Of a stretch of 53,564 nt of DNA, positions 7,483 through 27,876 are shown in pieces. The translations under genes and the position numbers were made by a program. Position 1 is the first letter of the stretch. Each line of letters begins with the position of its first letter. The notes beneath the pieces are model-generated. The model saw only the letters and a list, made by a program, of their open reading frames with translations, did no database searches and was not told the origin of the DNA. The stretch lies in assembly GCF_000337675.1 (NCBI RefSeq), contig NZ_AOIB01000036.1:181393-234956 (forward strand), in the 5' to 3' direction. This stretch comes from Natronococcus amylolyticus DSM 10524 (GTDB taxonomy: Archaea > Halobacteriota > Halobacteria > Halobacteriales > Natrialbaceae).

Positions 7483-7819
7483 AGGTTCCCTCGCGATCCC
7501 GTCTCCCGTGCCCGGAGATCGGGTCTGGTCGGATAGCTCACACCACCGACTGGGACGGAGCAACCCTTTACTATCTCGCGGCTACCCGGGCGAAACCGCC
7601 ATATACCGGTTAGAAGCCGTGACTGACGTCGGTAGCGACGATTCCGGCCGATCGGCCCCGTGGTCACCGGTAGCGATCGATCGAATCCGCGAGGGTGTCG
7701 GTTCGTTTCGTCCCTCGAGCGCCGACGTAGTACGGGACTACGCGACCGTCAAGCCGGGGATAACAAAGCCTCGCTACCGGCTGTGTCCGGACGATCACCC
7801 ATCCGGGTATCGAGCATCT
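7483..7819. other. Divergent intergenic region before the nucleotide-sugar operon
   Basis: 337 nt between the DUF7344 gene and the operon's first ATG. It contains the ATAACAAA element at 7760 (annotated separately) and a CATATACCGG stretch near 7599. No gene was recognised. Confidence 0.4.
7760..7767 (+). promoter_or_regulatory. ATAACAAA element before the nucleotide-sugar operon
   Basis: ATAACAAAGCC. The TAACAAA core begins 59 nt before the first ATG (7820), longer than the 32-37 nt seen at most other copies. Confidence 0.55.
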
Positions 7820-7894
7820 ATGAGCACATCCAGATACGACCGACGAGTGCAGGGACGAACCGTCGCGTTCCCGCGCGGAGGCTGGTCGCCGTGA
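7820..7894 (+). CDS. 24-aa minicistron overlapping the acetyltransferase start
   Basis: ATG (7820) starts a 24-codon ORF beginning MSTSRYDRRV. Its TGA (7892-7894) overlaps the downstream GTG as GTGA. The peptide is basic, unlike the acidic proteins around it, so it may be translated for coupling rather than for a product. It could also be a chance ORF. Confidence 0.35.
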   Translation: MSTSRYDRRVQGRTVAFPRGGWSP

Positions 7895-8469
7895 CACGGT
7901 TCGTCTCCGGCGAGGGCTGTACGATCGCCGACGGCGCGACGATCGATCACGGCGAGTTCGACGAGCCGACCAGGGTCGGCGCCGACGCGACGATCAGGGC
8001 CGGTTCGATCGTCTACGGCGACGTGACGATCGGCGACGGGTTCACGACCGGTCACGACGTGCTGATCCGCGAGGGAACCACGATCGGCGACGACGTGCTC
8101 GTCGGCACGAAGACCGTCGTCGACGGCGAGACGACGATCGGCTCGCACGTCAGCCTCCAGACGAACGTCTACGTGCCGACCGAGACGACGATCGGTGACA
8201 ACGTCTTCGTCGGCCCCGGTGCCGTCATGACCAACGACGAGTACCCCGTCCGGACCGAGGTCGACCTCGAGGGACCGACCCTCGAGGACGGCGCCTCGGT
8301 GGGCGCGAACGCGACGATCCTGCCGGGCGTGACCGTCGGCAAGAACGCGTTCGTCGCGGCCGGCGCCGTCGTCGTCGAGGACGTCCCCGCCGACAGCCTC
8401 GCCGTGGGCGCACCGGCGCGAACGAAACCGCTTCCCGCCCCCCTCGAGGGACCGAACCAGCTCGAATGA
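7891..8469 (+). CDS. Hexapeptide-repeat acetyltransferase (WbpD-like)
   Basis: 192 residues made of left-handed beta-helix hexapeptide repeats. Examples are CTIADG, VTIGDG and TTIGDDVLVG, with the acyl-CoA site region near FVGPGAVMTNDEYP. GVTVGKNAFVAAGAVVVEDVPADSLAVGAPA forms the C-terminal coils. It resembles WbpD/WlbB-type 3-N-acetyltransferases that acetylate UDP-GlcNAc3NA. The GTG start keeps the first repeat intact, and upstream codons have no repeat pattern. Its stop overlaps the aminotransferase start (ATGA). That context, beside genes for the other three steps, supports the assignment; the substrate is inferred. Confidence 0.8.
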   Translation: MTRFVSGEGCTIADGATIDHGEFDEPTRVGADATIRAGSIVYGDVTIGDGFTTGHDVLIREGTTIGDDVLVGTKTVVDGETTIGSHVSLQTNVYVPTETTIGDNVFVGPGAVMTNDEYPVRTEVDLEGPTLEDGASVGANATILPGVTVGKNAFVAAGAVVVEDVPADSLAVGAPARTKPLPAPLEGPNQLE

Positions 8470-9647
8470 CCGACACAGAAACCAATCCCGAGATCGACGC
8501 CGAAACGAGTATCGAGCGCGTAACCGACGAGCCGAGCGACGACGGGATCCCGATCGCCGATCCCGAACTCGGTCCGGACGCGATCGACCGCGTTCGGGAG
8601 GTCCTCGAGAGCGGCGCGCTCGCAGACGGTCCCGAGGTTCGGGCCTTCGAGCGCGAGTTCGCCGCCTTCTGCGGGGCCGACCGGGCCGTCGCGACCTCGA
8701 ACGGGACGACGGCGCTGGTGACCGCCCTCGAGGCCCTGGGGCTCGAGGACGGCGATGCCGTCGTCACCTCCCCGTTTTCCTTCGTTGCGAGCGCGAACGC
8801 GATCCGGCTCGCGGGCGGGACGCCGGTGTTCGCCGACATCGACCCCGAGACGTACGCGCTGGATCCGGAGGCCGTCGAACGAGTCCTGCGAGACAGGGAG
8901 GACGTCGTCGGCCTGCTGCCGGTTCATCTCTACGGACTGCCGGCGCCGATGCCCGCCCTTGTAGACCTCGCCGAGGATCACGACCTGTTCGTCCTCGAGG
9001 ACGCCTGCCAGGCTCACGGCGCGAAATGTGGGGGGGACCGGGTCGGCACGCTGGGCGACGCCGCCTGCTTCTCGTTTTACCCGACCAAGAACATGACGAC
9101 GGCCGAGGGCGGGATGGTCACGACCGACCGCGAGGCCGTCGCCGAGCGAGCGGCGCGGTACGTCAACCACGGCCGGGGCGAGACCGGTACCGGCGGCTAC
9201 GATCACCTCGAGCTCGGCCACAACTTCCGGCTGACGGGCGTCGCGGCCGCGATCGGTCGCGTCCAGCTCGAGCGACTGCCGTCGTTCAATCGGGCTCGCC
9301 GGGAGCACGCCGCCGCCTACGACGAGGCGTTCATCGAGCTCCCGCTCGAGACGCCGACCGAGCCGCCGCGGTATCGGCACGTCTACCACCAGTACACGGT
9401 CCGGACGACCGACCGGGACGCGCTCGCCGAATCGCTCGCGGACCGGAGCATCGACACCGGAATCTACTACGACCGACCGATCCACCGCCAGCCCGCCTAC
9501 GGGTCGGTCAGCACGGCCGCGGCGACGTTCCCCGAGGCCGAACGGGCCGCCGACGAGGTGCTCTCCCTGCCTGTTCACCCGTCGCTTTCGGCCGACGACC
9601 GCCGAACTGTCGTCGAGGCAGTGTGGGACCACTACGATACCCAATGA
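8466..9647 (+). CDS. DegT/DnrJ/EryC1 sugar aminotransferase (WbpE-like)
   Basis: 393 residues, the usual size for this PLP family. After an acidic leader of about 20 residues the fold begins IPIADPELGPDAIDRVREVL. VATSNGTTALVTALEALGL binds the cofactor phosphate. FVLEDACQAHGAK contains the ring-stacking Asp. FSFYPTKNMTTAEGGM carries the Schiff-base lysine (about Lys208). Such enzymes transaminate keto-sugar nucleotides. In this operon it would aminate UDP-3-keto-GlcNAcA at C3, using the product of the neighbouring oxidoreductase (inference). It overlaps both neighbours by ATGA. Confidence 0.9.
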   Translation: MTDTETNPEIDAETSIERVTDEPSDDGIPIADPELGPDAIDRVREVLESGALADGPEVRAFEREFAAFCGADRAVATSNGTTALVTALEALGLEDGDAVVTSPFSFVASANAIRLAGGTPVFADIDPETYALDPEAVERVLRDREDVVGLLPVHLYGLPAPMPALVDLAEDHDLFVLEDACQAHGAKCGGDRVGTLGDAACFSFYPTKNMTTAEGGMVTTDREAVAERAARYVNHGRGETGTGGYDHLELGHNFRLTGVAAAIGRVQLERLPSFNRARREHAAAYDEAFIELPLETPTEPPRYRHVYHQYTVRTTDRDALAESLADRSIDTGIYYDRPIHRQPAYGSVSTAAATFPEAERAADEVLSLPVHPSLSADDRRTVVEAVWDHYDTQ

Positions 9648-10624
9648 CCGACCAATCTACCGTCAGAGCCGGCGTCGTCGGCGCCGGCTCGATGGGGCAG
9701 AATCACGCGCGGGTGTACAGCGAGCTCCGAACCGTCGACCTCGTCGGCGTCGCCGACCGCGACCGCGAGGTCGCCCGGCGGGTCGCCGCCGAGCACGGAA
9801 CCGACGTCGTCGCCCTCGAGGCGCTGCTCGAACGGGTCGACGTCGTCACCGTCGCCGTGCCGACGCACGCACACGCCGAGGTCGTCTCGCGGTGTCTCGA
9901 GGCCGGCGTCGACGTGCTGGTCGAGAAACCGATCGCGGGTTCGGTCGCGGAGGGCCGCGCCCTCGCCGAACAGGCACGGAACGCCGGGCGAGTCCTGCAG
10001 GTCGGCCACATCGAACGGTTCAACCCCGCGGTGGGGATGCTCGAGGACCTGATCGAGGACCTCGACGTCATCGGGATCGAGGCCGAACGGCTCGGCCCGC
10101 CGATCAACCGCGACGCGCCCGGCGACGTCGTCTTCGATCTGATGATCCACGACGTCGACGTCGTGGGCGCCCTCCTCGGCCGGACGCCCACGTCGATCTC
10201 GGCGATCGGGGCGGCCGACGGACGGTACGCGACGGCGACGATGGAGTACGGCGATATCGTCGCGACGCTGACCGCGAGCCGGGTAACCCAGAAGAAGGTT
10301 CGGAAACTCACCGTCACCGCCCGCGAGTGTCTCGTCGAGGTCGACTACCTCGAGCAGTCGGTGCTGATCCACCGGGATTCCTACCCCGAGTACCTGACCG
10401 ACGACGGCCAGAACCGCTACCGCCACGAGAGTGTGGTCGAACGCCCGCGGATCGCGACGAGCGAACCGCTGCGGTGCGAGCTCGAGTCGTTCGTCGAGGC
10501 CGTCCGTACCGGATCCGAGCCCGAAGTGACCGCCGAGGACGGGATCGCGGCCCTCGAGACGGTCCAGGCGATCGATTCGCGGCTCGGAAACAGGAGACGC
10601 GAACCGGAGGTGAACGCCCGATGA
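9644..10624 (+). CDS. Gfo/Idh/MocA oxidoreductase (UDP-GlcNAc(A) 3-dehydrogenase-like)
   Basis: 326 residues. The Rossmann motif GVVGAGSMGQNHARVY is N-terminal, VEKPIAGSVAEG is the EKP motif, and HIERFNPAV and DLMIHDVDVV hold the catalytic region (the His of MIHD). The HIERFNPA form is typical of UDP-N-acetylglucosamine 3-dehydrogenases from archaeal glycan loci, from knowledge of the methanogen enzymes. It would oxidise C3 before transamination. Start and stop overlap the neighbouring genes by ATGA, consistent with translational coupling. Whether the substrate is UDP-GlcNAc or its uronic acid cannot be read from sequence. Confidence 0.85.
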   Translation: MTDQSTVRAGVVGAGSMGQNHARVYSELRTVDLVGVADRDREVARRVAAEHGTDVVALEALLERVDVVTVAVPTHAHAEVVSRCLEAGVDVLVEKPIAGSVAEGRALAEQARNAGRVLQVGHIERFNPAVGMLEDLIEDLDVIGIEAERLGPPINRDAPGDVVFDLMIHDVDVVGALLGRTPTSISAIGAADGRYATATMEYGDIVATLTASRVTQKKVRKLTVTARECLVEVDYLEQSVLIHRDSYPEYLTDDGQNRYRHESVVERPRIATSEPLRCELESFVEAVRTGSEPEVTAEDGIAALETVQAIDSRLGNRRREPEVNAR

Positions 10625-12072
10625 GCGCACTCGGTCCCTCGATTTACGGCTCGGAGCTCCCGGAGCGCGAGCTTCGCGAGCGGCTGATCGGCGGCGAGAT
10701 CCCCGTCGCCGTCTACGGACTCGGCAAGATGGGGCTCCCCCTCGCGGGCGTCTACGCCGAGACGACGGGCAACGTCACCGGGGTCGACGTCGACCCGACC
10801 GTCGTCGAGACGCTCGCCGACGGCGAGAGCCACGTCGTCGGCGAACCGGGACTCGACGACCTCGTCGCCGAGCAGGTCGAGCGGGGCCGGCTCACGGCGA
10901 CGACCGACGGCGCCGCGGCAGCTGCGGACGCCGGGATCCACGTGATCATCGTCCCGACACTGCTCGCCGAGGACGACTCGCCCGACCTGGCGACCGTCGA
11001 GTCGGTGCTCGAGGATATCGCGGCCGGGCTCGAGCCAGGTGACCTGGTCGTCGCCGAGTCGACGCTGCCGCCCGGCTCCTGCCGGGACGTCCTGCTTCCG
11101 CATCTGATCCAGGAGAGCGGCCTCGAGCGCGGCGAGCTCGGGCTCGCGTTCTGCCCCGAGCGGACGGCCTCGGGATCGGCCCTGCGGGACATCCGGGGAC
11201 GGTACCCGAAGGTCGTCGGCGGCGTCGACGCGGCGAGCACCCGCGCGGCCGAGCTGATCTACGGCGAACTCACGAGCAACGAGGTCCACGCGGTGTCCGA
11301 CGCGACGACCGCGGAGGCCGTGAAGGTGTTCGAGGGCGTCTACCGCGACGTCAACATCGCGCTCGCGAACGAGCTGGGTCGGCTCGCGGACGAGCTCGGC
11401 ATTTCAGTGCGGGAGGCGATCGACACCGCGAACGGGCTGTCGGTCTGTCAGCTCCACGAGCCCGGGCCCGGCGTCGGGGGCCACTGCATTCCGTACTATC
11501 CGCACTTCCTGCTCTCGCGGTTCGAGGAGCCGATGCCGGTGATGCGAACCGCCCGCGAGCTCAACGACGCGATGCCGTCGGTGATGGTCGATCGCCTCGC
11601 CGACCGGCTCGCGGCGACCGGCGCCGACACCGATCTCGCGGATGCCTCGGTGCTCGTCCTCGGGATCACCTACCGGGCTGGCGTCGAGGAGACCCGCGCC
11701 TCGCCCGCGCTGGGCGTCGTCGACGCGCTCCGCGAGATGGGGGCCGACGTCGCCGGTATCGATCCGCTGGTCGACCCCGCCGAGTACGGCGCCCGTCCGG
11801 TCGCCCTCGAGGACCTGCCCGACGAACCGTTCGACGGCGCGATCCTCGTCACGGCCCACGAAGAGTTCGAGGCAATTCCCTGGTCCGACCTCGAGCCGAT
11901 GGTCGTCGTCGACGGCCGGGACGCCCTCGACCTCTCGGGAACGGCCCACAGCCACTACACGTTCGCGGGCTCCCACGACGGGTCGGCCCCGTTCGGAGGC
12001 GGCGACGGCTCGGACGACGGTCGATCGGCACCGCTCGAGCCGCGACGAACGGACGGTGGGACCGATGTATAA
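10621..12072 (+). CDS. UDP-sugar 6-dehydrogenase (WbpA/UDP-GlcNAc dehydrogenase type)
   Basis: 483 residues. The NAD site YGLGKMGLPLAG is at about residues 32-43. The central domain contains EGVYRDVNIALANEL, and the catalytic cysteine lies in GPGVGGHCIPYYP (about Cys289). A C-terminal UDP-binding domain includes GITYRAGVEETRASPALGVV. The family performs two-step oxidation of a C6 hydroxyl to a carboxylate. With the three preceding genes it would supply a uronic acid, most simply UDP-GlcNAc to UDP-GlcNAcA. An acidic Gly/Asp-rich tail of about 40 residues follows the last domain. It overlaps the GT2 gene by 8 nt. Confidence 0.9.
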   Translation: MSALGPSIYGSELPERELRERLIGGEIPVAVYGLGKMGLPLAGVYAETTGNVTGVDVDPTVVETLADGESHVVGEPGLDDLVAEQVERGRLTATTDGAAAAADAGIHVIIVPTLLAEDDSPDLATVESVLEDIAAGLEPGDLVVAESTLPPGSCRDVLLPHLIQESGLERGELGLAFCPERTASGSALRDIRGRYPKVVGGVDAASTRAAELIYGELTSNEVHAVSDATTAEAVKVFEGVYRDVNIALANELGRLADELGISVREAIDTANGLSVCQLHEPGPGVGGHCIPYYPHFLLSRFEEPMPVMRTARELNDAMPSVMVDRLADRLAATGADTDLADASVLVLGITYRAGVEETRASPALGVVDALREMGADVAGIDPLVDPAEYGARPVALEDLPDEPFDGAILVTAHEEFEAIPWSDLEPMVVVDGRDALDLSGTAHSHYTFAGSHDGSAPFGGGDGSDDGRSAPLEPRRTDGGTDV

Positions 12073-13141
12073 GGGACGCTCGATCGGCGTCGTCGTCACC
12101 GCCTACGACGAGGCGGCGTTCGTCGGTCGTGTCATCGAGACGATCCCCGACTACGTCGATCGGATCTACGCCGTCGACGACGCCTCGCCGGACGACTCCT
12201 GGACCGTCATCCGACGGGTCGCCGAACGGATCAACGAGTCGACCGAGCCGGCGCGGGTGATCGCCGACGGCGGCGACAGCCGACGAGTGGTTCCGATCCG
12301 CCACGAGGAAAACAGGGGGTACGGCGGCGCGGTCAAGACCGGCTACGAGCGGGCCGCGGCCGACGGGATCGACGTCGTCGCCGTGATGAACGGCGACGCC
12401 CAGATGGACCCCGCGATCCTCGATCGGATCCTCGACCCCGTCGTCGACGGCGAGGCCGACTACGCGAAGGGAAATCGACTGTTGACTCCCGACGATCGCG
12501 CCTCGATGTCGACGTTCCGATTTATCGGCAACGCCACCCTCACCGGGCTCTCAAAGTTCGCCACCGGCTACTGGACGCTGTCGGACCCCCAGAACGGATA
12601 CACCGCCATCTCCAGGGAGGCCATCGAGACGCTCGAGTTCGAGTCGATCACCGACGAGTACGGCTTCCTCAATCACCTCCTGACCCACCTCAACGTCGCG
12701 GAGTTCCGCGTCGCGGACGTGCCGATGACGGCCGTCTACGGCGACGAGGAGTCGAGCATCGGCTACTCGTCGTTCGTCCAGTTCGTCTCTTTGCTGTTGC
12801 TGCGGAGCTTCCTGTGGCGACTCAAGACCCGCTACGTCGTCCGCAGTTTCCATCCCGCAGTCGTCTTCTACGGTGCCGGCGCGACCGGGCTGGCTGGTGG
12901 GCTCGCCGGACTGGTCGGCTCGCTCGCTCGAGCGGTCCGCGGCGCCGAGAGCTTCACGGGCGCGATCGCCTCCTTCGTCGCCGGACTGGTCGGCACGGTG
13001 GCCCTCGGAATCGCCATCTGGCTCGACCGCGAGGAGAACGCCCCCCTCGAGGTGAGCCCGTACGATCGATCAGACGAGGACGTCGCCGATGGAGGGTCGT
13101 CGGATCGGCTCGAGGAGGCGGCGCCCCGTTCGATCGAGTAG
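12065..13141 (+). CDS. Family 2 glycosyltransferase with C-terminal membrane helices
   Basis: 358 residues. The GT-A domain (about 5-235) has VVVTAYDEAAFVGRVIETIP, the nucleotide-binding VDDASPDDS, NRGYGGAVKTGY and the metal-binding GDAQMDP (DxQ variant of DXD). YWTLSDPQNGYTAISR closes the active site. Two or three helices follow, the clearest at about 270-300 and 305-325, then a charged tail. This resembles polyprenyl-phosphate glycosyltransferases (DPM1-like), which load a sugar on dolichol phosphate. As last gene of the operon it is the likely user of the sugar nucleotide made upstream (inference). Confidence 0.87.
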   Translation: MYKGRSIGVVVTAYDEAAFVGRVIETIPDYVDRIYAVDDASPDDSWTVIRRVAERINESTEPARVIADGGDSRRVVPIRHEENRGYGGAVKTGYERAAADGIDVVAVMNGDAQMDPAILDRILDPVVDGEADYAKGNRLLTPDDRASMSTFRFIGNATLTGLSKFATGYWTLSDPQNGYTAISREAIETLEFESITDEYGFLNHLLTHLNVAEFRVADVPMTAVYGDEESSIGYSSFVQFVSLLLLRSFLWRLKTRYVVRSFHPAVVFYGAGATGLAGGLAGLVGSLARAVRGAESFTGAIASFVAGLVGTVALGIAIWLDREENAPLEVSPYDRSDEDVADGGSSDRLEEAAPRSIE

Positions 13142-16517: not shown

Positions 16518-17480
16518 ATGAACGTCCTCGCCGTGACGGCTAACGCCGACGCGCCGTTTCTGACCCAGCAGGTGGACGCCCTCGAGCAGCGGGGCGTCTC
16601 CGTGACGACGATGTCAGTCGCCGGCGAGGTGAGCGCCGACACCGCCCGGAGCCCGCTCGACTACGTTCGGACGGTCCCGCGGGTGCTCCGGGAGGCGGGC
16701 CCGGAGTACGACCTGGTTCACGCCCACTACGGGCTGACCGCGCCGGCCGCGCTGGCCCAGCTCCGGCTCCCCGTCGTGCTCTCGCTGTGGGGCTCGGACG
16801 TCCACGGCCCGACCGCGCCCGTGAGCAAGCTCTGTGCGCCGCTGTGTGCGGAGGTGGTCGTCATGTCGGCCGAGATGGGTGCCGCGCTCGGTCGGGACTG
16901 TACGGTGATCCCCGACGGCGTCGACCTCGAGCGGTTCCGGCCTGAACCCCGCTCGCGCGCGCGAGAAACTGTCGGCTGGGCGGACGACGAGTACCACGTC
17001 CTCTTTCCCTATCCGCCCGCACGCACGGTGAAAAACTATCCCCGGGCGAAGCGGGTCGTCGACGCCGTCTCGAGCCGCGTCGATCGACCGGTTCGCCTGC
17101 AGACGATCTCGGGCGTCGATCACGACGCCGTCGCGACGTATTTCAACGCCGCCGACGCCCTGCTACTGACGTCCGACAGCGAGGGGTCGCCCAACTCGGT
17201 TAAGGAGGCGATGGCCTGTAATGTCCCCGTGGTCTCGCTCGCCGTCGGCGACGTGCCCGAGCGACTGGCCGGGGTCGACCCCTCGGTCGTCGCGCGATCC
17301 GATCGGGAACTGGTCGATGGGCTGGTGGGCATCCTCGAGCGCGGCGAGCGCTCGAACGGACGGGAGGCGGCCCATGAGGTGAGCATCGATCGAACCGCGG
17401 AGCGAATGCTCGCGGTCTACGAGCGCGCGACCGGGAAACGAGTACCGACTCGAGTCCCGAGAGTTCCCGCAAAGCGGTAG
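16518..17480 (+). CDS. Family 4 glycosyltransferase (GT-B)
   Basis: 320 residues, short for the family (usually 350-400). The N-terminal domain includes ANADAPFLTQQVDALEQRGV, LVHAHYGLTAPAAL and SLWGSDVHG. The C-terminal donor-binding domain has VIPDGVDLERF, then FNAADALLLTSDSEGSPNSVKEAMACNVPVV with the E-x7-E type motif. It would add a sugar from a nucleotide donor to a lipid-linked or surface glycan on the cytoplasmic side. It stands as a single gene with its own ATAACAAA element and is convergent with the SDR operon. The acceptor is unknown. Confidence 0.88.
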   Translation: MNVLAVTANADAPFLTQQVDALEQRGVSVTTMSVAGEVSADTARSPLDYVRTVPRVLREAGPEYDLVHAHYGLTAPAALAQLRLPVVLSLWGSDVHGPTAPVSKLCAPLCAEVVVMSAEMGAALGRDCTVIPDGVDLERFRPEPRSRARETVGWADDEYHVLFPYPPARTVKNYPRAKRVVDAVSSRVDRPVRLQTISGVDHDAVATYFNAADALLLTSDSEGSPNSVKEAMACNVPVVSLAVGDVPERLAGVDPSVVARSDRELVDGLVGILERGERSNGREAAHEVSIDRTAERMLAVYERATGKRVPTRVPRVPAKR

Positions 17481-17702: not shown

Positions 17703-18668
17703 CTACTGAATCTCCTCGCGGTACCAGGCCATCGTCTCCGGCAGGTGAGCCTCGAGCGGGCGATAGGTGTACCCCAGCTCCTCGTGGGCCTTCCGTGAGG
17801 TGTAGAACAGCCGCTGGGTCGCGAGTCGGGCCATTCGCCGATCGAAGGGAAACACGCGCCGACCGGTGGCGGCGTCGACGAGTTCGGCGACGGGACCTGC
17901 GGCGCGGATCGTGGTCGCCGGAACGGGGATTCGAGCGGGCGATCCCTCGAGGTGGGCGGCGATCCGCGAGACCGCGCGGTCGTAGGTGAGGTTCTCGCCA
18001 CCGAGGATGTAGTGTTCGCCGGACTCGCCGCGCTCGGCCGCGGCGACCAGTCCCGCGACGACGTCGTCGACGCCGACGATGCTGAGCCCGCCCGGGAGGT
18101 AGGCGGGCATCGTGCGCTCGAGCCCCATCGCGAGCAGCTGTGCCGTGAAGTTCCGATCGCCGGGGCCGAAGATCGAGGTGGGGTGGGCCGTCACCGCGTC
18201 GCCGGAGTCCTCGGCGTAGCGGTCGACGAGACGCTCGGCTTGAGCTTTCGAGGCCTGGTAGGCCCCGATCGGCTCGGCGACGTCGTCCTCGTCGGCGACG
18301 GGGTCGCTTCCGTTCGGTCGTCGGGTTCCCGAGGTGCTCGTAAACACCACGCGCCCGGCGTCGGTCGCCGCGCAGGCATCGAGGAGGTTCGCGGTTCCCT
18401 CCCGGTTGACCCGGCGGACGGTCTCGGGGTCGGCGCTCCAGAGGCTGGCGCCCGCGAGGTGGAAGACGGCGTCGCTCCCGTCGACCAGCGCCTCGAGCGT
18501 CCCCCGCTCGAAGAGGTCGCCGACGTACCAGTCGACGCCCGCGACGCCTCGATCCGAGCCGGACCGACTGAGCCCCCGGACGTCCCATCCCGCCGCACGC
18601 AGATGATCACAGAGGTGGGTTCCCAGAAACCCCGTCGCGCCCGTGACCGCGGCCGTCTTCGCGCTCAT
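17703..18668 (-). CDS. Extended SDR: NAD-dependent sugar epimerase/dehydratase
   Basis: 321 residues. The Rossmann motif GATGFLG is at residues 10-16, TSTSGTR holds the catalytic Ser, and YQASK holds Tyr137 and Lys141. FGPGDRNF follows. These define an NAD(P)-dependent epimerase/dehydratase of the type found with nucleotide sugars; a dihydroflavonol-reductase-like enzyme is the alternative. It is the last gene of a three-gene operon (Gfo/Idh, DUF362, SDR) with ATGA-type overlap to the DUF362 gene. The exact substrate cannot be read from the sequence. Confidence 0.85.
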   Translation of the reverse strand: MSAKTAAVTGATGFLGTHLCDHLRAAGWDVRGLSRSGSDRGVAGVDWYVGDLFERGTLEALVDGSDAVFHLAGASLWSADPETVRRVNREGTANLLDACAATDAGRVVFTSTSGTRRPNGSDPVADEDDVAEPIGAYQASKAQAERLVDRYAEDSGDAVTAHPTSIFGPGDRNFTAQLLAMGLERTMPAYLPGGLSIVGVDDVVAGLVAAAERGESGEHYILGGENLTYDRAVSRIAAHLEGSPARIPVPATTIRAAGPVAELVDAATGRRVFPFDRRMARLATQRLFYTSRKAHEELGYTYRPLEAHLPETMAWYREEIQ

Positions 18669-19594
18669 CGTCCCTCGAGCTGTGGCGGGACGGCGTCCCC
18701 GCTCGCGACCGCGTAGAGCCGGTAGGCGCTCGAGACCGCGGGATGCGTGTCGTCCGAGGGCGGCAGCCGACCGCCCGCCAGTCGCTCCCTGATGCCCGAG
18801 AGGTCGACGCCGTCGGGGTTCTCGACGGCAACCGGTCGCTCCGCGTCTGAGAGCAACAGAGAGAGCGCGACGTCCGCGTCGACGTCTCGACCCAACAGGG
18901 ATGTCGCCACGGCGTCGACGGCGGGCGCCGATCCCGAGAGCAACACGTTCGTCGCGACGGGATCGTCGCCGTAGGCGACCGTTCCGTCGAGCACGGCGAG
19001 GTCGGGATCGACCGTTCGGGTCGCGGCGACCGCGGCCCGAGTCGAGTCGGCTCCGGAGGTTACGAGTCGGCCGAGCGTTCGAACCGCCCCAGCAGCCGTT
19101 CCCTCCTCGGTCGGCCGCAGCGACGGGACGACGATCACGGTCGACTCGAGCAGCGGCTTCGGCACCGAGAGCGCGACCGAGCGCCCGTCGACGGCCCGGT
19201 ACTCGTTTCGCGTCGGTACGTCAGCGAGGTCGACGAGCGCCGCGTCGAAGCGCTCGGCCAGTCGGTCGTAGCCGAGGTACGACGCCGTTCGCTCGAACGC
19301 GATCCGGTCGTCGCTGCGCCCGACGACGACGAGATCGATCTCGAGTTCCCGGTCGAGCCACGCGGCGACCGCGCCGACGACCGCAGGATCGGTCACGACG
19401 CCCGTCGAGGGATGGAACGGGTAGTGGGCGTCCGGAGCGAGGGTTACCCGATCGGCGTTCGCGAGTCGCTTCCGGTGGGGCTCGAGGACCGCTCCGACGG
19501 CCGACTCGAGGCGGGCCAGCCGCGCGTCGACGGTCGGCCGCCAGCCGCCTCGACTGTCGTCCTCGTCGATCGCGGCCAGGTGAGCGGAGCTCAC
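18665..19594 (-). CDS. DUF362 protein
   Basis: 309 residues. LAPDAHYPFHPSTGVVTDPAVVGAVAAWL, LVVVGRSDD and the loop around VPKPLLESTVIVVPSLRPT fit DUF362, a family of unknown function sometimes linked to iron-sulfur proteins. No CxxC ferredoxin motif is present here, so the simple form is represented. It is sandwiched by ATGA overlaps between a Gfo/Idh oxidoreductase and an SDR epimerase, so it probably acts with them on the same sugar or lipid-linked intermediate. The role is not known. Confidence 0.75.
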   Translation of the reverse strand: MSSAHLAAIDEDDSRGGWRPTVDARLARLESAVGAVLEPHRKRLANADRVTLAPDAHYPFHPSTGVVTDPAVVGAVAAWLDRELEIDLVVVGRSDDRIAFERTASYLGYDRLAERFDAALVDLADVPTRNEYRAVDGRSVALSVPKPLLESTVIVVPSLRPTEEGTAAGAVRTLGRLVTSGADSTRAAVAATRTVDPDLAVLDGTVAYGDDPVATNVLLSGSAPAVDAVATSLLGRDVDADVALSLLLSDAERPVAVENPDGVDLSGIRERLAGGRLPPSDDTHPAVSSAYRLYAVASGDAVPPQLEGR

Positions 19595-20691
19595 GGCCGC
19601 ACCTCCGGGACCTCGAGTTCCTCGGCGATGGTCTCGGCCGCCAGGTCGTAGGCGGTCTCGGCCAGCGCGAGCGATCGCCGGCCGTCGAGCCCGCTGACGG
19701 GTGGCTCCTCGTTCGCCCGGACCGCCTCGCAGAAGTCGGCCAGCGCGTCGTAGTGGGCCCGCAGGTAGAACGTCGGGCCGAAGACGGTCGGCTCACCGCC
19801 GACGCGGCTGGCGACGTTCTCGAGGGCCGCCCGGGCCGCGTCCGCGTAGAAGTTCTTCGGAAGGTGGTCCCGGTTGGTGATCGTCCCCGTAATTCCCTCG
19901 AGGCGCAACCGCGTGTTCACCTCGGGCAGCTCCTCCCACTGGTAGGAGCCACAGTGTACCGTGATCGTCGTCCCCGTCTCCGGCGCCCGCAAGAGGACCG
20001 TCGCGGCGTCCTCGACGGGAATTTCGAGGGTTCGGCCCATCGTCGCGTCTCGGACCTCGAGCTCGCCGAACAGCCACTCGAGCACGTCGAAGCAGTGCAC
20101 CCCGAGCTCGAGCAGGGAGCCGCCGCCGACGGCGTTCGGATCGAGCGGCCAGGACGGCGGTGCAGTGTCTGCGGGCGGACGTCCGAGCGGGCCGTCGTTG
20201 AGCCGGATGATCGAGGCGTAGGGAACGTGGCCGACACCACCGTCCTCGTAGGCCGACTTGACGCCGACCATGTCGGGCTGGTACCGAAGTGTGTGGTCGA
20301 CGCCGACGGCGATCCCCGCTCGCTCGGCAATTTCGAGCATTCTATCGGCTTCCTCCGTCGAGCGGGCCAGGGGCTTCTCGACGAAGACGTCAATTCCGTA
20401 CTCGGCGGCCCGTTCGACGGCCTCGGCGTGGAGAAACGGCGGGAGCGCGACGACGGCGGCATCGAGATCCTCCGCGGCGAGCAGCGCCGCGTAGTCGTCG
20501 TACGTTCGGTCGACGCCGGCCCGCTCGGCCCGGTCGCGGTTCCCCGGAACCGCGTCGGCGGCTGCGGGGACCTCGACGCCGGGCATCGCCAGCGCCGATT
20601 TCAGATGCACCATGCCGATGTTCCCGACCCCGAGAACGCCGATCGAGAGCGGCTTCGAGTCGGTCGACCGGCCGCGAAACTGTGAGAGCAT
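19591..20691 (-). CDS. Gfo/Idh/MocA family oxidoreductase
   Basis: 366 residues. The N-terminal NAD motif is GVLGVGNIGMVHLKSAL, the EKP motif is VFVEKPLARSTEEAD, and GGGSLLELGVHCFDVLEWLF contains the catalytic region (D/H pair). This differs from the 9644 oxidoreductase and is only distantly similar. Such enzymes oxidise or reduce sugar hydroxyls. First gene of the operon with DUF362 and SDR, with an ATAACAAA element 34 nt before its ATG. Residues 1-14 before the Rossmann strand are short and polar, consistent with this start. Confidence 0.87.
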   Translation of the reverse strand: MLSQFRGRSTDSKPLSIGVLGVGNIGMVHLKSALAMPGVEVPAAADAVPGNRDRAERAGVDRTYDDYAALLAAEDLDAAVVALPPFLHAEAVERAAEYGIDVFVEKPLARSTEEADRMLEIAERAGIAVGVDHTLRYQPDMVGVKSAYEDGGVGHVPYASIIRLNDGPLGRPPADTAPPSWPLDPNAVGGGSLLELGVHCFDVLEWLFGELEVRDATMGRTLEIPVEDAATVLLRAPETGTTITVHCGSYQWEELPEVNTRLRLEGITGTITNRDHLPKNFYADAARAALENVASRVGGEPTVFGPTFYLRAHYDALADFCEAVRANEEPPVSGLDGRRSLALAETAYDLAAETIAEELEVPEVRP

Positions 20692-20816: not shown

Positions 20817-21770
20817 TCACGGCTGTCTTGCCGTCGCCCGACCGTCGACGCTGTTTGGGGTTCCGTCGACCCCGTCGGCTGCCTTCGTTCGGCGGGCGAC
20901 GTCGGCCATCGTCTCGACAGTGAGGTCGGTTTCGGCTCGTCGCCGATCCAGATAGGAGAGGATCGCCCCCATCCGATCGTCGTCGCGCTCGCGAGTGAGG
21001 TTGTTCGGGTGGAGCCACATGTGAAAGAGGCCATCGGCATCGACTGCCTCGTCGATGCCGCGACGAGCCAGCACGACCATCGGATCACTCCAGACCGATT
21101 CGGCGACCGTCCGCGCGGGTCCCTCGAAGCCGAACAGGAACAGCGACGCCGGAACGTTCACCAGGCCGTACTCGTCGACGATCGGTTCGACGATCATCGA
21201 CCGATCCCGCAGCGTCGAGTCGAAGAGGCCGCGAATCCCGTCGTGGGTCGGGGACCGACCGCGGTAGGCGCCGACGCCGTACTCGGCGAGCACGTCGCGG
21301 TGGCCGACGTCGTTTCGCGGGTAGACGAACGAGTCGACCGTCTGCCCCCACTCCCGCGCCAGCTCGAGGCTCCGCTCGAGTTCGGCTGCCGCGAGTTCGC
21401 GGTCGGTTTCGGGCTGTCCGAACAGGACGTGCGAGAACGAGTGACTGGCGAACTCGTGGTCGACGTCGGAGTCGAGGATCGCGCGAACCAGATCCGGACA
21501 GAACCGAAGGTCCTCGCGATCGGCCCACTCCCCTTGCTCGCGGTCGAACCATCCGTTCGGCACGGGATGGTCGGCGTGTCGCCCGTCACAGGACTCGAGC
21601 ATGAGGTGGCCGACGACGGCCCACGTCGCGGGGACGTCGTACTCGGCGCACAGCTCGAGCATAGCCACCCAGCCGCGTCGGCCGGCCTCGACTCGAGCGC
21701 TCGGCGGGGAGTCGAGATCGTGAAACCCCCACCCGAGCTCGGCGTCGAGCGAGATTACGACGCTGCCCAC
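20817..21770 (-). CDS. Polysaccharide deacetylase-like protein (NodB fold)
   Basis: 317 residues. SVVISLDAELGWGFHD contains the first metal Asp. ATWAVVGHLMLESC, FASHSFSHVLFGQPE (the H-x3-H metal motif), FVYPRNDVGH and LFHMWLHPNNLT match carbohydrate-esterase-4-like deacetylases. It would remove acetyl groups from an N-acetylated sugar during glycan synthesis. No signal peptide is visible, so it acts in the cytoplasm or on lipid-linked intermediates. The GTG at 21770 is the best start (VGSVVISLDAE); GTGs at 21779 and 21782 are alternatives. A 14-codon ORF (ATG 21799 to TAA 21755) overlaps this start in another frame. Confidence 0.83.
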   Translation of the reverse strand: MGSVVISLDAELGWGFHDLDSPPSARVEAGRRGWVAMLELCAEYDVPATWAVVGHLMLESCDGRHADHPVPNGWFDREQGEWADREDLRFCPDLVRAILDSDVDHEFASHSFSHVLFGQPETDRELAAAELERSLELAREWGQTVDSFVYPRNDVGHRDVLAEYGVGAYRGRSPTHDGIRGLFDSTLRDRSMIVEPIVDEYGLVNVPASLFLFGFEGPARTVAESVWSDPMVVLARRGIDEAVDADGLFHMWLHPNNLTRERDDDRMGAILSYLDRRRAETDLTVETMADVARRTKAADGVDGTPNSVDGRATARQP

Positions 21771-21825
21771 AGCGCCCACCACCGTTGGGGATCGTTCATG
21801 GGGATGCCGATAGCGCCTGCGTCGT

Positions 21826-21833
21826 TTTGTTAT
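21826..21833 (-). promoter_or_regulatory. ATAACAAA element before the deacetylase
   Basis: The minus strand reads ATAACAAAAC. The core is 33 nt before an ATG at 21799 that opens a 14-codon ORF, and 62 nt before the likely GTG start at 21770. Confidence 0.55.
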
Positions 21834-21989
21834 GGGCGCCGTTCCGACCATCCGGCCGCCCGCTGCGGACGGTAACCGGTCGGTACCGGTCTCCGATACC
21901 CAATGGAGAGCGTCTCGCCGACGAACCGACCACCGGTAGGATGTGACAATCGTCCGTCGATCGATCCCGTTCCCGAGTGAAGCCGATCT

Positions 21990-21997
21990 ATAACAAA
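21990..21997 (+). promoter_or_regulatory. ATAACAAA element before the first phosphodiesterase
   Basis: ATAACAAAGCG. The core begins 63 nt before the ATG at 22054, leaving room for a short 5' leader. It lies back to back with the copy serving the divergent deacetylase. Confidence 0.55.
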
Positions 21998-22053
21998 GCG
22001 GTCGTCGGGTCACCTCCAGGACAGTAGACGTTCCCGACGTCTCGACACCAATC

Positions 22054-23643
22054 ATGAGCGGATCTTCAACCCCGTCCGAGCGAGCGTTCGTCCTCGGACT
22101 CGACGGCGTACCGTGGAGGCTGATCGAACGATGGACCGACGCCGGGGAGCTCCCGAACTTCGCCCGGATGCGAACGGAGGGCGCCTCCGGGGTCCTCGAG
22201 AGCACCCGGCCACCGACGACGCCGCTGGCGTGGCCCTCGATCGCGACCGGCGTCTGGCCGGACAAACACGGCATCTACGGGTTTCAGAAGCTTTCTTCGG
22301 AGTACTCCCAGCGGATGTACACGAGTCACGATCGCCAACAGCCGGCCCTCTGGGAGCAGCTCTCGCCGGCCCACGTCGGCAACGTCCCGATGACCTACCC
22401 CGCCAGCGAAATCGACGGCACGATGGTAGCGGGGATGATGACGCCGTCGACCGAACGCGAGTTCACTCACCCACCGGAGTTCCAGTCGAGACTCGAGCGA
22501 CGCGTGCCGGAGTATCAGATTAGCCTCGACTACCCCGAGTACGCCGACCGCCTCGACGAGTTCCCCGACGCGGTCGACGAGATGCTCTCGAAACGACGAG
22601 AGCTGATGCGTCTGCAGATGGACGAGGCCGGCGACGACTGGCAGCTGTTTTTCTTCGTCTACACCGCACCAGACCGGTTCCAGCACCTCGTCTGGGAGAT
22701 GGAGCCGTTGCTCGAACACTACAAGCGACTCGACGAGATCCTCGGCGAGGTCATCGAGTACACCGACGACCACGACGCCGATCTCTACGTCATCTCGGAC
22801 CACGGCTTCGGGCCGATCCACCGACTCGTCTACGTCAATCACGTCCTCGAGCGCGAGGGATACCTGTTCAAACGGGAGGACGAGGGGACTCGCGGCGCGC
22901 TCGCGAGCCTGGGAATCTCCCGAGACACGATCACGAACACGCTCGACCGGGTCGGCATCTCCGAGGAGCTGCTCGTCTCGGCGCTCCCGCGCCGACTGGT
23001 CGACTCGGTCGCAGAACAGATACCCGGCGACCACGCCCTCTACGACGTCGACTACGACCGAACCGTCGCGTTCGTCCACGGCGCAGGCACCTGCTACGTC
23101 AACGACACCGAACGGTTCGAGCACGGCGTCGTCGAGCCGCGCGAGATCCCGAAGGTCAAAGAAAAACTCGTCGAGATCTTCGAGTCCGTCACTGAGGCCG
23201 ACGGGACTCGAGTGCTCGAGGTCTTCGACGGCGACGAGCTGTTCCCGACCGACGACCGATCGCCGGATCTGGTCGTCAACGGCCGGGACGGCTACGACTC
23301 GCGGAACACGATCACCGACGAACTGTTCGGCGAGACGGGCACGTACGCCGCCAGCCACCGGAGCACCGGGATCATGCTCTGTCGCGGCCCCTCGATCGAC
23401 GCCGGTGCGACGCTCCGGGGCGCCCGCGTCGTCGACGTCGCGCCGACCCTGCTCCACGGAATCGGCGAACCGATTCCGGAGAACACCGACGGTCGCGTGC
23501 TGTTCGACGCCTTCGACGAGCGCGCGACCCCCTCGCGGACGAAGGTCGAACGAGTCGCCGTCTCGGGAACCGAAGGCGGCGAGGTCGAGGAGGACTTCTC
23601 CGACGTCGAGGATCGACTGAAGGGGCTGGGCTACATGGAGTGA
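22054..23643 (+). CDS. Alkaline-phosphatase-superfamily phosphodiesterase (copy 1)
   Basis: 529 residues. FVLGLDGVPWRLI holds the first metal Asp, and RPPTTPLAWPSIATGVWPDKHGIYGF the nucleophile region (Thr or Ser before PLAWPS). VISDHGFGPIHR near residue 247 supplies Asp/His metal ligands, and a conserved His lies near YAASHRS. This is the type I phosphodiesterase/nucleotide pyrophosphatase group. No signal peptide is seen, so cytoplasmic action on a phosphate ester or sugar nucleotide is likely. A diverged paralogue sits at 39561. Its job in glycan synthesis, adding or removing a phosphate-linked group, is inferred. Confidence 0.87.
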   Translation: MSGSSTPSERAFVLGLDGVPWRLIERWTDAGELPNFARMRTEGASGVLESTRPPTTPLAWPSIATGVWPDKHGIYGFQKLSSEYSQRMYTSHDRQQPALWEQLSPAHVGNVPMTYPASEIDGTMVAGMMTPSTEREFTHPPEFQSRLERRVPEYQISLDYPEYADRLDEFPDAVDEMLSKRRELMRLQMDEAGDDWQLFFFVYTAPDRFQHLVWEMEPLLEHYKRLDEILGEVIEYTDDHDADLYVISDHGFGPIHRLVYVNHVLEREGYLFKREDEGTRGALASLGISRDTITNTLDRVGISEELLVSALPRRLVDSVAEQIPGDHALYDVDYDRTVAFVHGAGTCYVNDTERFEHGVVEPREIPKVKEKLVEIFESVTEADGTRVLEVFDGDELFPTDDRSPDLVVNGRDGYDSRNTITDELFGETGTYAASHRSTGIMLCRGPSIDAGATLRGARVVDVAPTLLHGIGEPIPENTDGRVLFDAFDERATPSRTKVERVAVSGTEGGEVEEDFSDVEDRLKGLGYME

Positions 23644-24155: not shown

Positions 24156-24164
24156 CAATCCCAC

Positions 24165-24178
24165 CTTTTGTTTTTCGT
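24165..24178 (+). terminator. T-rich terminator
   Basis: CCTTTTGTTTTTCG follows the stop at 24155 by about 10 nt. Archaeal transcripts typically end at such T-runs. Confidence 0.45.
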
Positions 24179-24395
24179 CGAACGATCCCGTTCGAAGTCG
24201 ATCCGCTACTCGAGACCATGTGTCGTGGTCACCTCGCTCTCGCCGCGGTCCGTCCTCGCGCGTTCGTAGCGGACCCGTTCCGTCACTCGAGGGGGTAGCG
24301 CAACGGGAATAGCTACTCGCGATCCGTCTGCAGACGGTGGTGGTCGTACAGGTATCACTCGACCCCTTCGCTCCCGAACCCCCCGACTCTGTCGC

Positions 24396-25715
24396 CTATC
24401 GGTCGGAACGAACCAGTCGGAGTCCGGTCCTGGCGGCCGTCCAGGCCGGGTACAGTCTGTTGTAGACGCTGCTCGGCGCGTTCCTCGCACCCGCCCGGAG
24501 GAGCCGGTGGGACAGCGGCGGCCCCGACTCCGAGACCAGATCCTCGAGATCGGCCGTCTCGAGCCACTCGAAGAAGGCCCGCTCGGTCGCCGACTCGGGC
24601 TCGGCCTCTCGCGCGCGCCCGCGAATATCTTCCCACATGTAGCGCTCGTCCTGGCCGAGCACCCACTCGCCGCCCTCGAGGGCGACCCGCAGTCGCTCGT
24701 ACTCGTGGTCGGCGAAGGGGTAGCCGTGCTCGGTCGGCTCGAGGCCCGCGAGCCGGAGGCCGACGGCGGTCCGGTAGCACTTCTCGCAGCGCCCGCAGTT
24801 CCCCTTCATCTGACGGTTGCAGGTCTGGAGCTCGAGGTCCGGGGCGTCGCTTCGGACGTAGTCGGCGATAGCGTCGAGCCGTTCCTGGCGGGTGAGTTCG
24901 TAACAGTCGTGGTGACACCGGGTGCCGGCCCAGCGAACGTTGTCGTCGATGTCGGGCCGGGAGCCCCACTCGAGGTCGATCCCCTCCCAGTGGGTGGCGG
25001 CGACGTAGAGGTCGGTCATCCCGCGGGCGTACGCCAGCGGCGCACAGAGCCCGAGCAGGCCGAGGCCGTGGCCGACGGAGCTGTACCAGGCGCCGTCGAC
25101 GTGGCGCTTGTAGTGGGCGAGCAGCATCGGGTGGTCGAGAAAGGAGAGCATGTTCGACTCGAGGAAGGCCGTCTCGAGCTCCCGCTCGACGGCGAACGAC
25201 TCGACGCGATTCGTGAGATGGCGCCACTTGTCGTCGTCGGCGAGGTCGGGCGTGATCGTCCAGCCGCGGATGCTGATCAGCGTCGGTTCCTCCTCGCGGT
25301 GGCGGACGTACGAACACGTCGAGTCGACGCCCCCCGTGAACAGTAGTCCGCTCTCGCCGTCGCCCTCGTCGTCAGCCGGCGGGTCGGGGTCGATCGTGCG
25401 CCGGGCGTAGAGGGTTCCACCCTCGAGGAAGTCGTACATGCCACAGAGCGTCTCCTTCACGTCCTCGAGCGCGCGGGCGAAGGTCGCGTCGACCGCCTCG
25501 ACGTAGACGTCGGCGCCGTTGGCCCACGCGACGGGACAGACCTGCGCGAGGATAGGGATCGCGAGGATCCCCTCGGGGACCTCGGTGATCGGCACGTCGT
25601 ACTCGGTTCGGAACGGCTCGCTCGTCAGGAACCGCTCGAGGTCGGGCGTGGCGCGGGCCTCACACTCGAGGGTTCGCCCATCGACGGTCGGCCGATCGAT
25701 GATGATAGCACTCAT
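24396..25715 (-). CDS. PP-loop ATPase with QueC-like zinc site
   Basis: 439 residues. The PP-loop (ATP pyrophosphatase) motif is LLFTGGVDSTCSY (TGGVDS at 127-132). Near residue 300 a cysteine cluster, C299-x7-C307-x2-C310-x2-C313 (TCNRQMKGNCGRCEKC), matches the zinc-site layout of QueC, which makes 7-cyano-7-deazaguanine. The protein is about twice the length of QueC and has an N-terminal domain of about 120 residues, so it is unlikely to be QueC itself. PP-loop enzymes adenylate carboxylates or carbonyls. In a glycan locus, amidation or another activation of a uronic acid is a plausible role (inference). Start ATG 25715; a 16-codon ORF (25762-25712) overlaps it as ATGA. Confidence 0.75.
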   Translation of the reverse strand: MSAIIIDRPTVDGRTLECEARATPDLERFLTSEPFRTEYDVPITEVPEGILAIPILAQVCPVAWANGADVYVEAVDATFARALEDVKETLCGMYDFLEGGTLYARRTIDPDPPADDEGDGESGLLFTGGVDSTCSYVRHREEEPTLISIRGWTITPDLADDDKWRHLTNRVESFAVERELETAFLESNMLSFLDHPMLLAHYKRHVDGAWYSSVGHGLGLLGLCAPLAYARGMTDLYVAATHWEGIDLEWGSRPDIDDNVRWAGTRCHHDCYELTRQERLDAIADYVRSDAPDLELQTCNRQMKGNCGRCEKCYRTAVGLRLAGLEPTEHGYPFADHEYERLRVALEGGEWVLGQDERYMWEDIRGRAREAEPESATERAFFEWLETADLEDLVSESGPPLSHRLLRAGARNAPSSVYNRLYPAWTAARTGLRLVRSDR

Positions 25716-25762
25716 ATACGGGTTCGTCGCTCCAGAGCACGCCGAGGGCGTACAAAAAGCAT
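25712..25762 (-). CDS. 16-aa minicistron overlapping the PP-loop gene start
   Basis: ATG at 25762 opens 16 codons, and its TGA overlaps the ATG of the PP-loop gene as ATGA. No clear promoter box was found at the expected distance, so this is the weakest of the minicistrons listed. Confidence 0.25.
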   Translation of the reverse strand: MLFVRPRRALERRTRI

Positions 25763-25997
25763 CAGCGTCGTTGATCGTCCGCAACTCGAGAAATCGGTCC
25801 GTAGCCGTCAGTCCGGATCGAACAGGGACTGCATACTTGCCCCGTGACCTGGCGCCCCGGAGATCCCGTCGCCGGCGTCCGTTTCACGGGGCTCAGAATC
25901 CGTCCGAAACCGTCCTCGACCATCGGTGTCGACCATAGTAGTCGGGCCACGGATCGCCTCGAGCGGGCGTCAACGTCGGAAATCCTGTAGGTTCCCT

Positions 25998-26005
25998 ATA
26001 ACAAA
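25998..26005 (+). promoter_or_regulatory. ATAACAAA element before the polytopic membrane protein
   Basis: TATAACAAACCCC. The TAACAAA core is 37 nt before the ATG at 26036 (a 15-codon minicistron) and 81 nt before the main ATG at 26080. Confidence 0.6.
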
Positions 26006-26035: not shown

Positions 26036-26083
26036 ATGTGTATCGCGACACCATCGAGGAGACGGCGGACAGCCAGCCTATGA
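26036..26083 (+). CDS. 15-aa minicistron overlapping the membrane protein start
   Basis: ATG at 26036, 15 codons (MCIATPSRRR...), TGA at 26081-26083. The stop overlaps the next ATG (26080) as ATGA. The ATG lies 37 nt after the ATAACAAA core, exactly as in the DUF1616 case. The peptide is basic and has no motif. Confidence 0.4.
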   Translation: MCIATPSRRRRTASL

Positions 26084-27876
26084 ACCGATCGGCGCTCGAC
26101 TGGCTCTTCGCCGCCGGCTTTCTCGCGCTCGCCGCGGGGATCGCGCTTGCCCGGAACGATCCCGCGACTACCTACGAGTCGTCGGTCTACACCGGGACGC
26201 CGACGGCGGTCTGGATCGCCTTCGCGCTGGCGCTCGCGATCGCCGTCAGCGCGAGCCTGGTCTGTTACGGCCGCCAGCAGGCCATCGGGATCGGGCTCGG
26301 CGCCACGACGGTAACCGCGATCGTGAGCCTGCCGGTGATCAGGGGCTACTACTTCTACGGGATGGGCGACGCCCTCTCGCATCTGGGCTGGACCAGGGAT
26401 ATCGTCGAGGGCGAGATGGGTGCCCACGAACTGTTCTACCCGGCCGTCCACTCGCTGGGGTCGATCTTCTACTTTCTCGGCGGGATTCCGATCGAGCGAG
26501 GGCTACTGTTCGCGCTCGTGGTCACGTTCGTTCCGTTCCTGATCTTCGTTCCCCTCACCGTGCGCGACCTGAGCGGAAACGCGCTCGCGGTCGGCGTTGC
26601 GGCGATCGTCTCCTGGATGGTGTTGCCGATCAACAACGTCGCAACCCACATGGGCGTCCACACCAACTCGAACGCGCTGTTTGTCGTCCCGGTCGTCGTC
26701 TTCGCCGTCGTCGCCTACCTCCGTCGGCGCGCGACGATCGAACGATTCCCGCTTGGACTCTCTCCGTTCAGCGTCCTGGTGTACGTCTCGGCGATCACCC
26801 TCCTGCTGGTCCACCCCCAGCAGATGGTCAACGCCGTCGTCTTCGTCGCGGCCGTAAGCGGCGTCCAGTACCTCGTCCACAGGCGGTACGCCGACCACCC
26901 AATGCTCGAGCAGCCGACGCTCCACACTCAGACGCTCGTTCTCGGGACGATCTTCGGCGCCTGGGCGGTGACCAACCAGCGGTTCCGCGACGCCGTCGAG
27001 GGGTTCGTCACGGGCATCTTCGCGGCCGACGTCGGCGGAAGCGCCGAGATCGACCAGCAGGGAACGTCGCTCACCGAGATCGGCGGCAGCCTCGCGGAGC
27101 TGTTCGTCACGATGTTCTTCGACGCCGCCCTGATCGGGCTCGCCGTCGGGCTGTTCCTGCTGTTGGCCGTGATCGGGCGGACGAGACTGGACGCGGAGGG
27201 TCGGTCGCTCGTCACGTACTTTACCGTCGCACTCGTCCCGCTCGGGGGGATGTTCCTGCTCTACTTCCTCGGGACGCCCAACATGGCGTTTCGCCAGATG
27301 GGCTTCATCTACGTCGTGTTGACGATCCTCGCGGGCGTCGCGATCGCACACGGGATCGGTGGGCTCTCCCGGTTCGTCTCGAGGCCGGGTGCAAGCGCCG
27401 TTGCGGCGGTAGTGCTCGGTAGCTGTCTCGTGCTCGGACTGATGACCGTCTACGCCTCGCCGATCATCTACAGCCCCGGCCAGCACGTCCCCGAGGCGAC
27501 GTTCAACGGCTACGAGACGGGAATGGACCGCGGCGCCGACGACACGCCGTACGCGGGGATCGGGTACGATCCGTACCGGCTCGATCACGGCATCAACGGA
27601 CTCGAGGGCGAGGAGTCGCTGACTGCGGGCACCGCGGCCAGCGGCGAACTCGACCCCGAGACGTTCAACGAGGGGAACTATAGCGGTGCGTACAACGATG
27701 CCGACCACTACCTCGTCATCTCTTCGTTCGACGAGACCCGCGAGTTCGACGTCTACCAGGGGCTGCGCTACGAGGAGACGGCCTACCGTGGGCTCGAGTA
27801 CGATCCGTACGCGGACAGAGTGATCTCGAACGACGACTTCCGGATGTACGCGATCGCGGGCGGGGACGACGAGTAA
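26080..27876 (+). CDS. Large polytopic membrane protein (GT-C-like candidate)
   Basis: 598 residues with about 12 transmembrane helices up to residue 470, then a soluble extracellular tail of about 130 residues. An early loop contains YYFYGMGDALSHLGWTRDIV (about 88-107) with acidic and His residues, like the catalytic first loop of GT-C glycosyltransferases. The tail has NYSG, a possible glycosylation sequon. It could be a membrane glycosyltransferase or polymerase using a lipid-linked donor outside the cell; a transporter is less likely. ATG 26080 is used because the upstream frame reads polar codons and a minicistron stop overlaps this ATG. Confidence 0.7.
   Translation: MNRSALDWLFAAGFLALAAGIALARNDPATTYESSVYTGTPTAVWIAFALALAIAVSASLVCYGRQQAIGIGLGATTVTAIVSLPVIRGYYFYGMGDALSHLGWTRDIVEGEMGAHELFYPAVHSLGSIFYFLGGIPIERGLLFALVVTFVPFLIFVPLTVRDLSGNALAVGVAAIVSWMVLPINNVATHMGVHTNSNALFVVPVVVFAVVAYLRRRATIERFPLGLSPFSVLVYVSAITLLLVHPQQMVNAVVFVAAVSGVQYLVHRRYADHPMLEQPTLHTQTLVLGTIFGAWAVTNQRFRDAVEGFVTGIFAADVGGSAEIDQQGTSLTEIGGSLAELFVTMFFDAALIGLAVGLFLLLAVIGRTRLDAEGRSLVTYFTVALVPLGGMFLLYFLGTPNMAFRQMGFIYVVLTILAGVAIAHGIGGLSRFVSRPGASAVAAVVLGSCLVLGLMTVYASPIIYSPGQHVPEATFNGYETGMDRGADDTPYAGIGYDPYRLDHGINGLEGEESLTAGTAASGELDPETFNEGNYSGAYNDADHYLVISSFDETREFDVYQGLRYEETAYRGLEYDPYADRVISNDDFRMYAIAGGDDE

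Follow-up and report, generated by a model that had tools for sequence, protein, structure and literature searches.

The gene on the minus strand at 24396..25715 of the window, the 53,564-nucleotide stretch of Natronococcus amylolyticus DSM 10524 DNA analysed here, encodes a 439-residue QatC-like PP-loop protein. Computation assigns it to the QueC/QatC fold class with conserved catalytic and metal residues, separates it with its relatives into a clade of their own, and links it to glycan genes. We propose, with about as much confidence as doubt, that it is a soluble zinc ATP pyrophosphatase of the QueC/QatC superfamily acting in the nitrogen tailoring of an acidic surface sugar. For this protein, we infer zinc, ATP use, adenylation and nitrogen transfer; the exact sugar and the nucleophile of the reaction are guesses.

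The minus-strand frame, which starts with ATG, is open across exactly this interval, and the plus-strand frame across it is interrupted by a stop. With a dN/dS of 0.13-0.25 against close relatives, it is therefore a real gene under purifying selection. Its annotation reads hypothetical protein only, and searches of the protein (P0001) against Pfam, NCBIfam, PADLOC models and PDB sequences gave nothing above noise; Rfam had no match at 24000-27000 of the window. The motifs named in the first-pass annotation, which gave no strand, TGGVDS at residues 127-132 and C-x7-C-x2-C-x2-C at 299-313, were located exactly. The former is the PP-loop, the predicted ATP pyrophosphate site (25320..25337, minus strand), and the latter, with cysteines at positions 299, 307, 310 and 313, is the predicted zinc site (24777..24821, minus strand), based on its alignment with the zinc cysteines of QueC.

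To place the protein by fold, we used an AlphaFold2 model built with 35 family sequences. The model reached a pLDDT of 83 and a pTM of 0.84, with uncertainty in two loops at residues ~200-220 and ~240-260, likely substrate loops (pLDDT 55-68), and in the last 40 residues. Foldseek with this model returned QatC first and QueC next. VIA-align gave a Z score of 14.5 over 303 residues for QatC (9y02_B; model residues 1-385 against chain residues 3-454), 13.7 over 190 residues and 13.0 over 186 for QueC, 10.9 for Cap9 and 10.6 for the nitrile synthetase ArtA. The comparison with QueC, which had been suggested at the outset, supports a QueC-type PP-loop/zinc fold; QatC and QueC are tied in Z score, with the QatC match extending over the longer span, and the N-terminal part of the protein is matched by QatC alone. 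Profile comparison by hhalign with archaeal QatC-like proteins (P 4.8e-8, probability 95%) begins at residue 68, i.e. within the N-terminal extension, and the profile alignment with E. coli QueC has a P of 9.6e-6.

The predicted fold is that of a QueC core with a QatC-type N-terminal extension. More specifically, an alpha/beta extension of residues ~1-118 (25362..25715, minus strand), delineated by VIA-align and hhalign, is common to QatC and absent in QueC, and residues ~330-439 form a C-terminal helical extension in the model (24399..24728, minus strand), the last part of which is of low confidence. The protein is indeed about twice as long as QueC (439 versus ~222-231 residues), as first noted, because of these QatC-type extensions. 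QatC of the qatABCD anti-phage system (PDB 9y01, 9y02; NF041925) shares the N-terminal alpha/beta extension, the QueC core and the C-terminal helices at a length of ~430 residues, and it carries a PP-loop and a four-cysteine site as well. The family placement is QatC-like, more than simply QueC-like. Nevertheless, identity to QatC is only ~14%, the two fall in separate clades, and the TxTxHP-type segment of QatC stands against GS[HR]P in our protein. P0001 falls far below the cut-off of the QatC model NF041925 (280 bits), which did not list it, and the best relative scored an E value of 0.0017.

Among 24 diverse archaeal and bacterial relatives, at least 92% retain each of F126, G128, G129, D131, R276 and the four cysteines, indicating that the TGGVDS and cysteine motifs are not due to chance. 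This conservation spans the haloarchaea to Bacillota, Cyanobacteria and Alphaproteobacteria. In the family alignment the PP-loop begins with [ST]GG, and the first cysteine spacing, x7 here, ranges from 6 to 11, compared with the C-x8-C of canonical QueC (PMC13329287). Canonical QueC (PF06508, TIGR00364; PDB 2pg3, 3bl5) has in common with our protein the core fold, the PP-loop, the zinc cysteines and a basic residue at the Lys place; in our protein this is Arg276 (24888..24890, minus strand), which aligns to a Lys conserved in both QueC and QatC. Neither PF06508 nor TIGR00364 listed P0001 at E<=1, and the best relative scored an E value of 0.0013.

The QueC catalytic layout first read from the sequence is thus retained in its PP-loop and zinc cysteines, but not in the x8 spacing, nor in Y35, R99, Y131 and the D133 position, none of which is kept in the family alignment. 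In QueC itself, mutation of Tyr35, Arg99 or Tyr131 abolishes queuosine formation (PMC13329287). Of the QueC substrate motifs YxQxHxxE, VPxRN and YPDC, all replaced in the family, only the Pro of YPDC is retained: a GHG-type segment stands opposite VPxRN in the alignment, and WGS[HR]Px opposite SGYPDC. The GS[HR]P motif (residues 251-254; 24954..24965, minus strand), placed by alignment and in agreement by hhalign, occupies the SGYPDC position, which serves substrate recognition in QueC. QatC, too, has lost the Tyr/Asp pair that holds the deazaguanine acid (PMC13279940), and these replacements together argue that carboxydeazaguanine is an unlikely substrate.

The gene occurs in 68 of the 75 good genomes of Natrialbaceae, as a single copy with few exceptions, and other haloarchaeal families hold further copies that are more divergent. 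Bacterial relatives, sampled from plasmid records and viral contigs, were found in plasmid records of Priestia, Pseudobutyrivibrio, Azospirillum, Gloeothece, Gemmobacter and Nostoc, all annotated as hypothetical protein, and relatives also lie on seven IMG/VR contigs; none of the phage records contained a relative of the Priestia copy. In a midpoint-rooted tree with several long branches, all 24 family members group in a single clade (100/97), separate from QueC and from archaeal QatC-like proteins, the latter serving as outgroup only. A search for QatC in 393 genomes of the phylum gave four matches, none above the cut-off. By sequence comparison, the protein belongs to a separate branch of the QueC/QatC family that is so far without a name. 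This branch scores below the PF06508 threshold used for the 2026 QueC family survey, which was built on PF06508 members (PMC13329287). Literature searches on QueC with polysaccharides, DUF6395, and QueC with pyruvyl transferase, with subscription papers mostly outside their reach, turned up no account of the family.

The association with glycan genes is stronger than the initial sequence reading had suggested. A membrane protein of ~600 residues is encoded divergently from our gene in all 33 Natrialbaceae loci with full flanks, and at least three recurrent glycan-cluster families are present in 31 of these. In the window this partner (26080..27876, plus strand) is, by adjacency and fold, a predicted GT-C membrane glycosyltransferase with an oligosaccharyltransferase/ArnT-like fold, related to DUF6541; the window protein itself matches no Pfam family, and one of its relatives bears the name DUF6541. 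The confidence of its model is intermediate (pLDDT 67, pTM 0.65), but every one of the 43 best-scoring structural matches is a GT-C glycosyltransferase or a subunit of GT-C fold, with Z scores of 21.5 for STT3, 18.7 for archaeal AglB and 16.9 for ArnT.

The neighbouring uronic-acid operon proposed at first pass is likewise borne out. On the plus strand it comprises a WbpD-like hexapeptide N-acetyltransferase (7660..8469), a WbpE-like DegT aminotransferase (8466..9647), a WbpB-like Gfo/Idh dehydrogenase (9626..10624, start approximate) with below-cut-off likeness to the archaeal UDP-GlcNAc 3-dehydrogenase model, and a WbpA-like nucleotide-sugar 6-dehydrogenase (10684..12072, start approximate) above the cut-off of TIGR03026. 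By analogy with the known Wbp pathway, their products would make a diacetamido-uronic acid. Further along the same strand lie a family 2 glycosyltransferase (12077..13141, start approximate), a family 4 glycosyltransferase (16518..17480) and a type I phosphodiesterase family protein (22054..23643), a family with a member in 31 of the 33 loci. The minus strand carries a run of epimerase, DUF362 and Gfo/Idh genes (17703..20691), conserved near our gene and also in Halorientalis litorea (L136), and a polysaccharide deacetylase family protein (20817..22274, start approximate).

Linkage to this operon was assessed with the WbpE-like gene as marker. It lies within 25 kb of our gene in 36 of the 53 genomes that hold both on one contig, at a median of 12.9 kb, and across genomes the presence of one is associated with that of the other, the two being both present in 64, both absent in 7 and discordant in 4. 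The genomes are related to one another, so that these counts are not independent, and the double absences stem from few genera. A more independent case is a 60% identical copy (L067): it lies amid genes for the acetyltransferase, the aminotransferase and the dehydrogenases, and the GT-C partner is missing there. Neither a glutaminase nor a dedicated nitrogen donor is a constant neighbour of the gene.

Loci of the bacterial relatives were also rich in polysaccharide genes. Priestia has two tandem copies (L132:10554-13158 and L133:9953-12566) in plasmid polysaccharide clusters, next to UDP-glucose dehydrogenase, pyruvyl transferase, glycosyltransferases and GalU, and one of these plasmid loci also encodes a DUF6395 protein that has the same motifs. 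DUF6395 (PF19932) resembles our protein in its PP-loop, C-terminal four-cysteine motif and N-terminal extension; its match to our protein reaches 11.9 bits over 21 residues against a Pfam gathering score of 25, and it sits on a very long branch in the tree. The copies of Pseudobutyrivibrio, Azospirillum, Gloeothece and Gemmobacter adjoin a polysaccharide pyruvyl transferase or lie at most two genes from one, so that this enzyme is found nearby in five of the six bacterial genera, and the neighbours of the Nostoc copy are a flippase, glycosyltransferases and an O-antigen ligase. The bacterial link to pyruvyl transferase is not valid here, since PF04230 was not found in the host genome.

Among the divergent haloarchaeal copies the picture is more mixed. 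The neighbourhood survey suggested at first pass did not, overall, place the relatives consistently away from sugar loci or next to queuosine genes, but about one third of the divergent haloarchaeal copies are not obviously in sugar loci. Two of them (L084, L085) adjoin a DNA polymerase IV gene, one (L090) is near a penicillin amidase gene, and three (L077, L087, L091) have no clear sugar genes around them. Next to the paralogue in L077, the protein at L077:7960-9237 resembles, by eye, the tRNA-modifying enzyme TiaS. ATP-grasp ligases directly adjoin a relative in several loci (e.g. L083:8134-9363, L136:13318-14526), and FemAB/GNAT proteins are frequent nearby (e.g. L079:13868-14872, L088:7746-8816).

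In PP-loop enzymes of the QueC type, ATP activates an oxygen and a nucleophile then displaces AMP. The nucleophile is ammonia in QueC and a protein amine in Cap9 (PMC13279940). In the mechanism we propose, the protein would bind ATP via its PP-loop and transfer AMP to a carboxylate (or acetamido) oxygen of an acidic sugar, after which ammonia or an amine would displace AMP to yield an amide or amidine. The single most likely product would be a primary amide at the uronic carboxylate. In the Natrialbaceae, the most likely substrate would be the diacetamido-uronic acid from the WbpD/E/B/A-like operon, as a nucleotide- or lipid-linked sugar, and the divergent GT-C enzyme would transfer the glycan at the membrane's outer face. 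More tentatively, and with the balance somewhat against it, the branch as a whole, in archaea and several bacterial phyla, may convert acidic sugars of surface polysaccharides to amides. We also considered, and set aside, a connection with the glutamate-containing cell wall polymer of Natronococcus occultus (cited in PMC10897055).

Two other outcomes stay close to this proposal, as amidine formation and amine conjugation are special cases of largely the same mechanism. Joining of an amine (an amino acid, an amino sugar or another) to the uronic carboxylate, in place of a primary amide, is unlikely, although it has real precedents: Cap9 and probably QatC use an amine nucleophile (PMC13279940), and Methanococcus glycans contain a uronic acid whose position 6 carries threonine, the enzyme for which was unknown in 2010 (PMC2952790). 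The several copies that adjoin ATP-grasp and FemAB/GNAT genes would fit such a reaction, but these genes are patchy (3 and 8 of 33 loci, respectively) and their products could perform the ligation themselves. A slightly smaller chance is given to a WbpG-like function carried out by a different fold branch, that is, conversion of acetamido to acetamidino on the diacetamido-uronic acid. WbpG and the other N-acetyl sugar amidotransferases (WbpG/WbuX, NASAT, TIGR03573; PDB 8WEX) are zinc PP-loop enzymes that add nitrogen to acetamido sugars to give acetamidino sugars (PMC10607449), and they too occur beside a Wbp-type diacetamido-uronic-acid pathway, the WbpA/B/D/E-type operon being the one linked to our gene. 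An archaeal N-glycan contains an acetamidino-uronic acid, to which a WbpG-like gene was assigned (PMC2952790), and the host genome has no NASAT above threshold, its one weak match (E 0.006, 16.6 bits) falling below the cut-off. Against this, the CxxC pair that precedes the NASAT PP-loop and forms half of its zinc site is absent in 24 of 24 family members, TIGR03573 did not list P0001 at E<=1, and no linked HisH/HisF ammonia-supplying pair was seen. Our protein is therefore not a NASAT member, though a similar job is possible.

The full-length fold likeness to QatC and the replacement of the deazaguanine-acid Tyr/Asp in both (PMC13279940) would also suit modification of a protein, such as one at the cell surface or the GT-C partner itself, as by Cap9 and perhaps QatC. 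QatC, the nearest relative over the whole fold, is thought to modify a protein and not a sugar (PMC13279940), which also counts against the preferred sugar reading. We consider protein modification distinctly improbable: qatA, qatB and qatD are found neither among the annotated neighbours of the relatives nor among the window neighbours of our gene, the neighbours present are sugar enzymes, and the GT-C partner begins with MNRS, MRRS or MKRS and not with Met-Gly. Least credible, to the point of near dismissal, is a diverged QueC still acting on 7-deazaguanine or another base. The shared core fold and zinc motif are set against a canonical QueC encoded separately in the host genome, the lost substrate residues, and annotated loci in which queuosine genes do not adjoin the relatives.

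The preferred reading, nitrogen tailoring of an acidic surface sugar, is less of a departure than the first-pass annotation claimed when it called this use of the fold in glycans undescribed. That claim was overstated, because the WbpG-type enzymes already set a precedent for PP-loop proteins in glycan loci (PMC10607449); what appears to be new is a separate branch with QatC architecture in such loci. Should the branch modify glycans, QatC-type architecture would gain a role outside defence, the branch would be a candidate for a nitrogen-tailoring step of glycans, and proteins now annotated as hypothetical in Natrialbaceae, Priestia, Azospirillum and cyanobacteria would become testable. If the amide reading is true, the ligase chemistry of tRNA bases and phage defence would also be general glycan tailoring. 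In the Natrialbaceae, the fixed GT-C pairing points to an undescribed surface-glycan pathway.

Two minor observations concern the Natrialbaceae loci. Two Natrialbaceae copies (G117:C5:23198-24514 and G150:C4:376142-377455) contain one in-frame TGA each and are either pseudogenes or sequencing errors. Beside the GT-C gene, at 28192-31337, two conserved proteins have twin-arginine-like signals and no Pfam match, and by eye they look like secreted beta-helix proteins.
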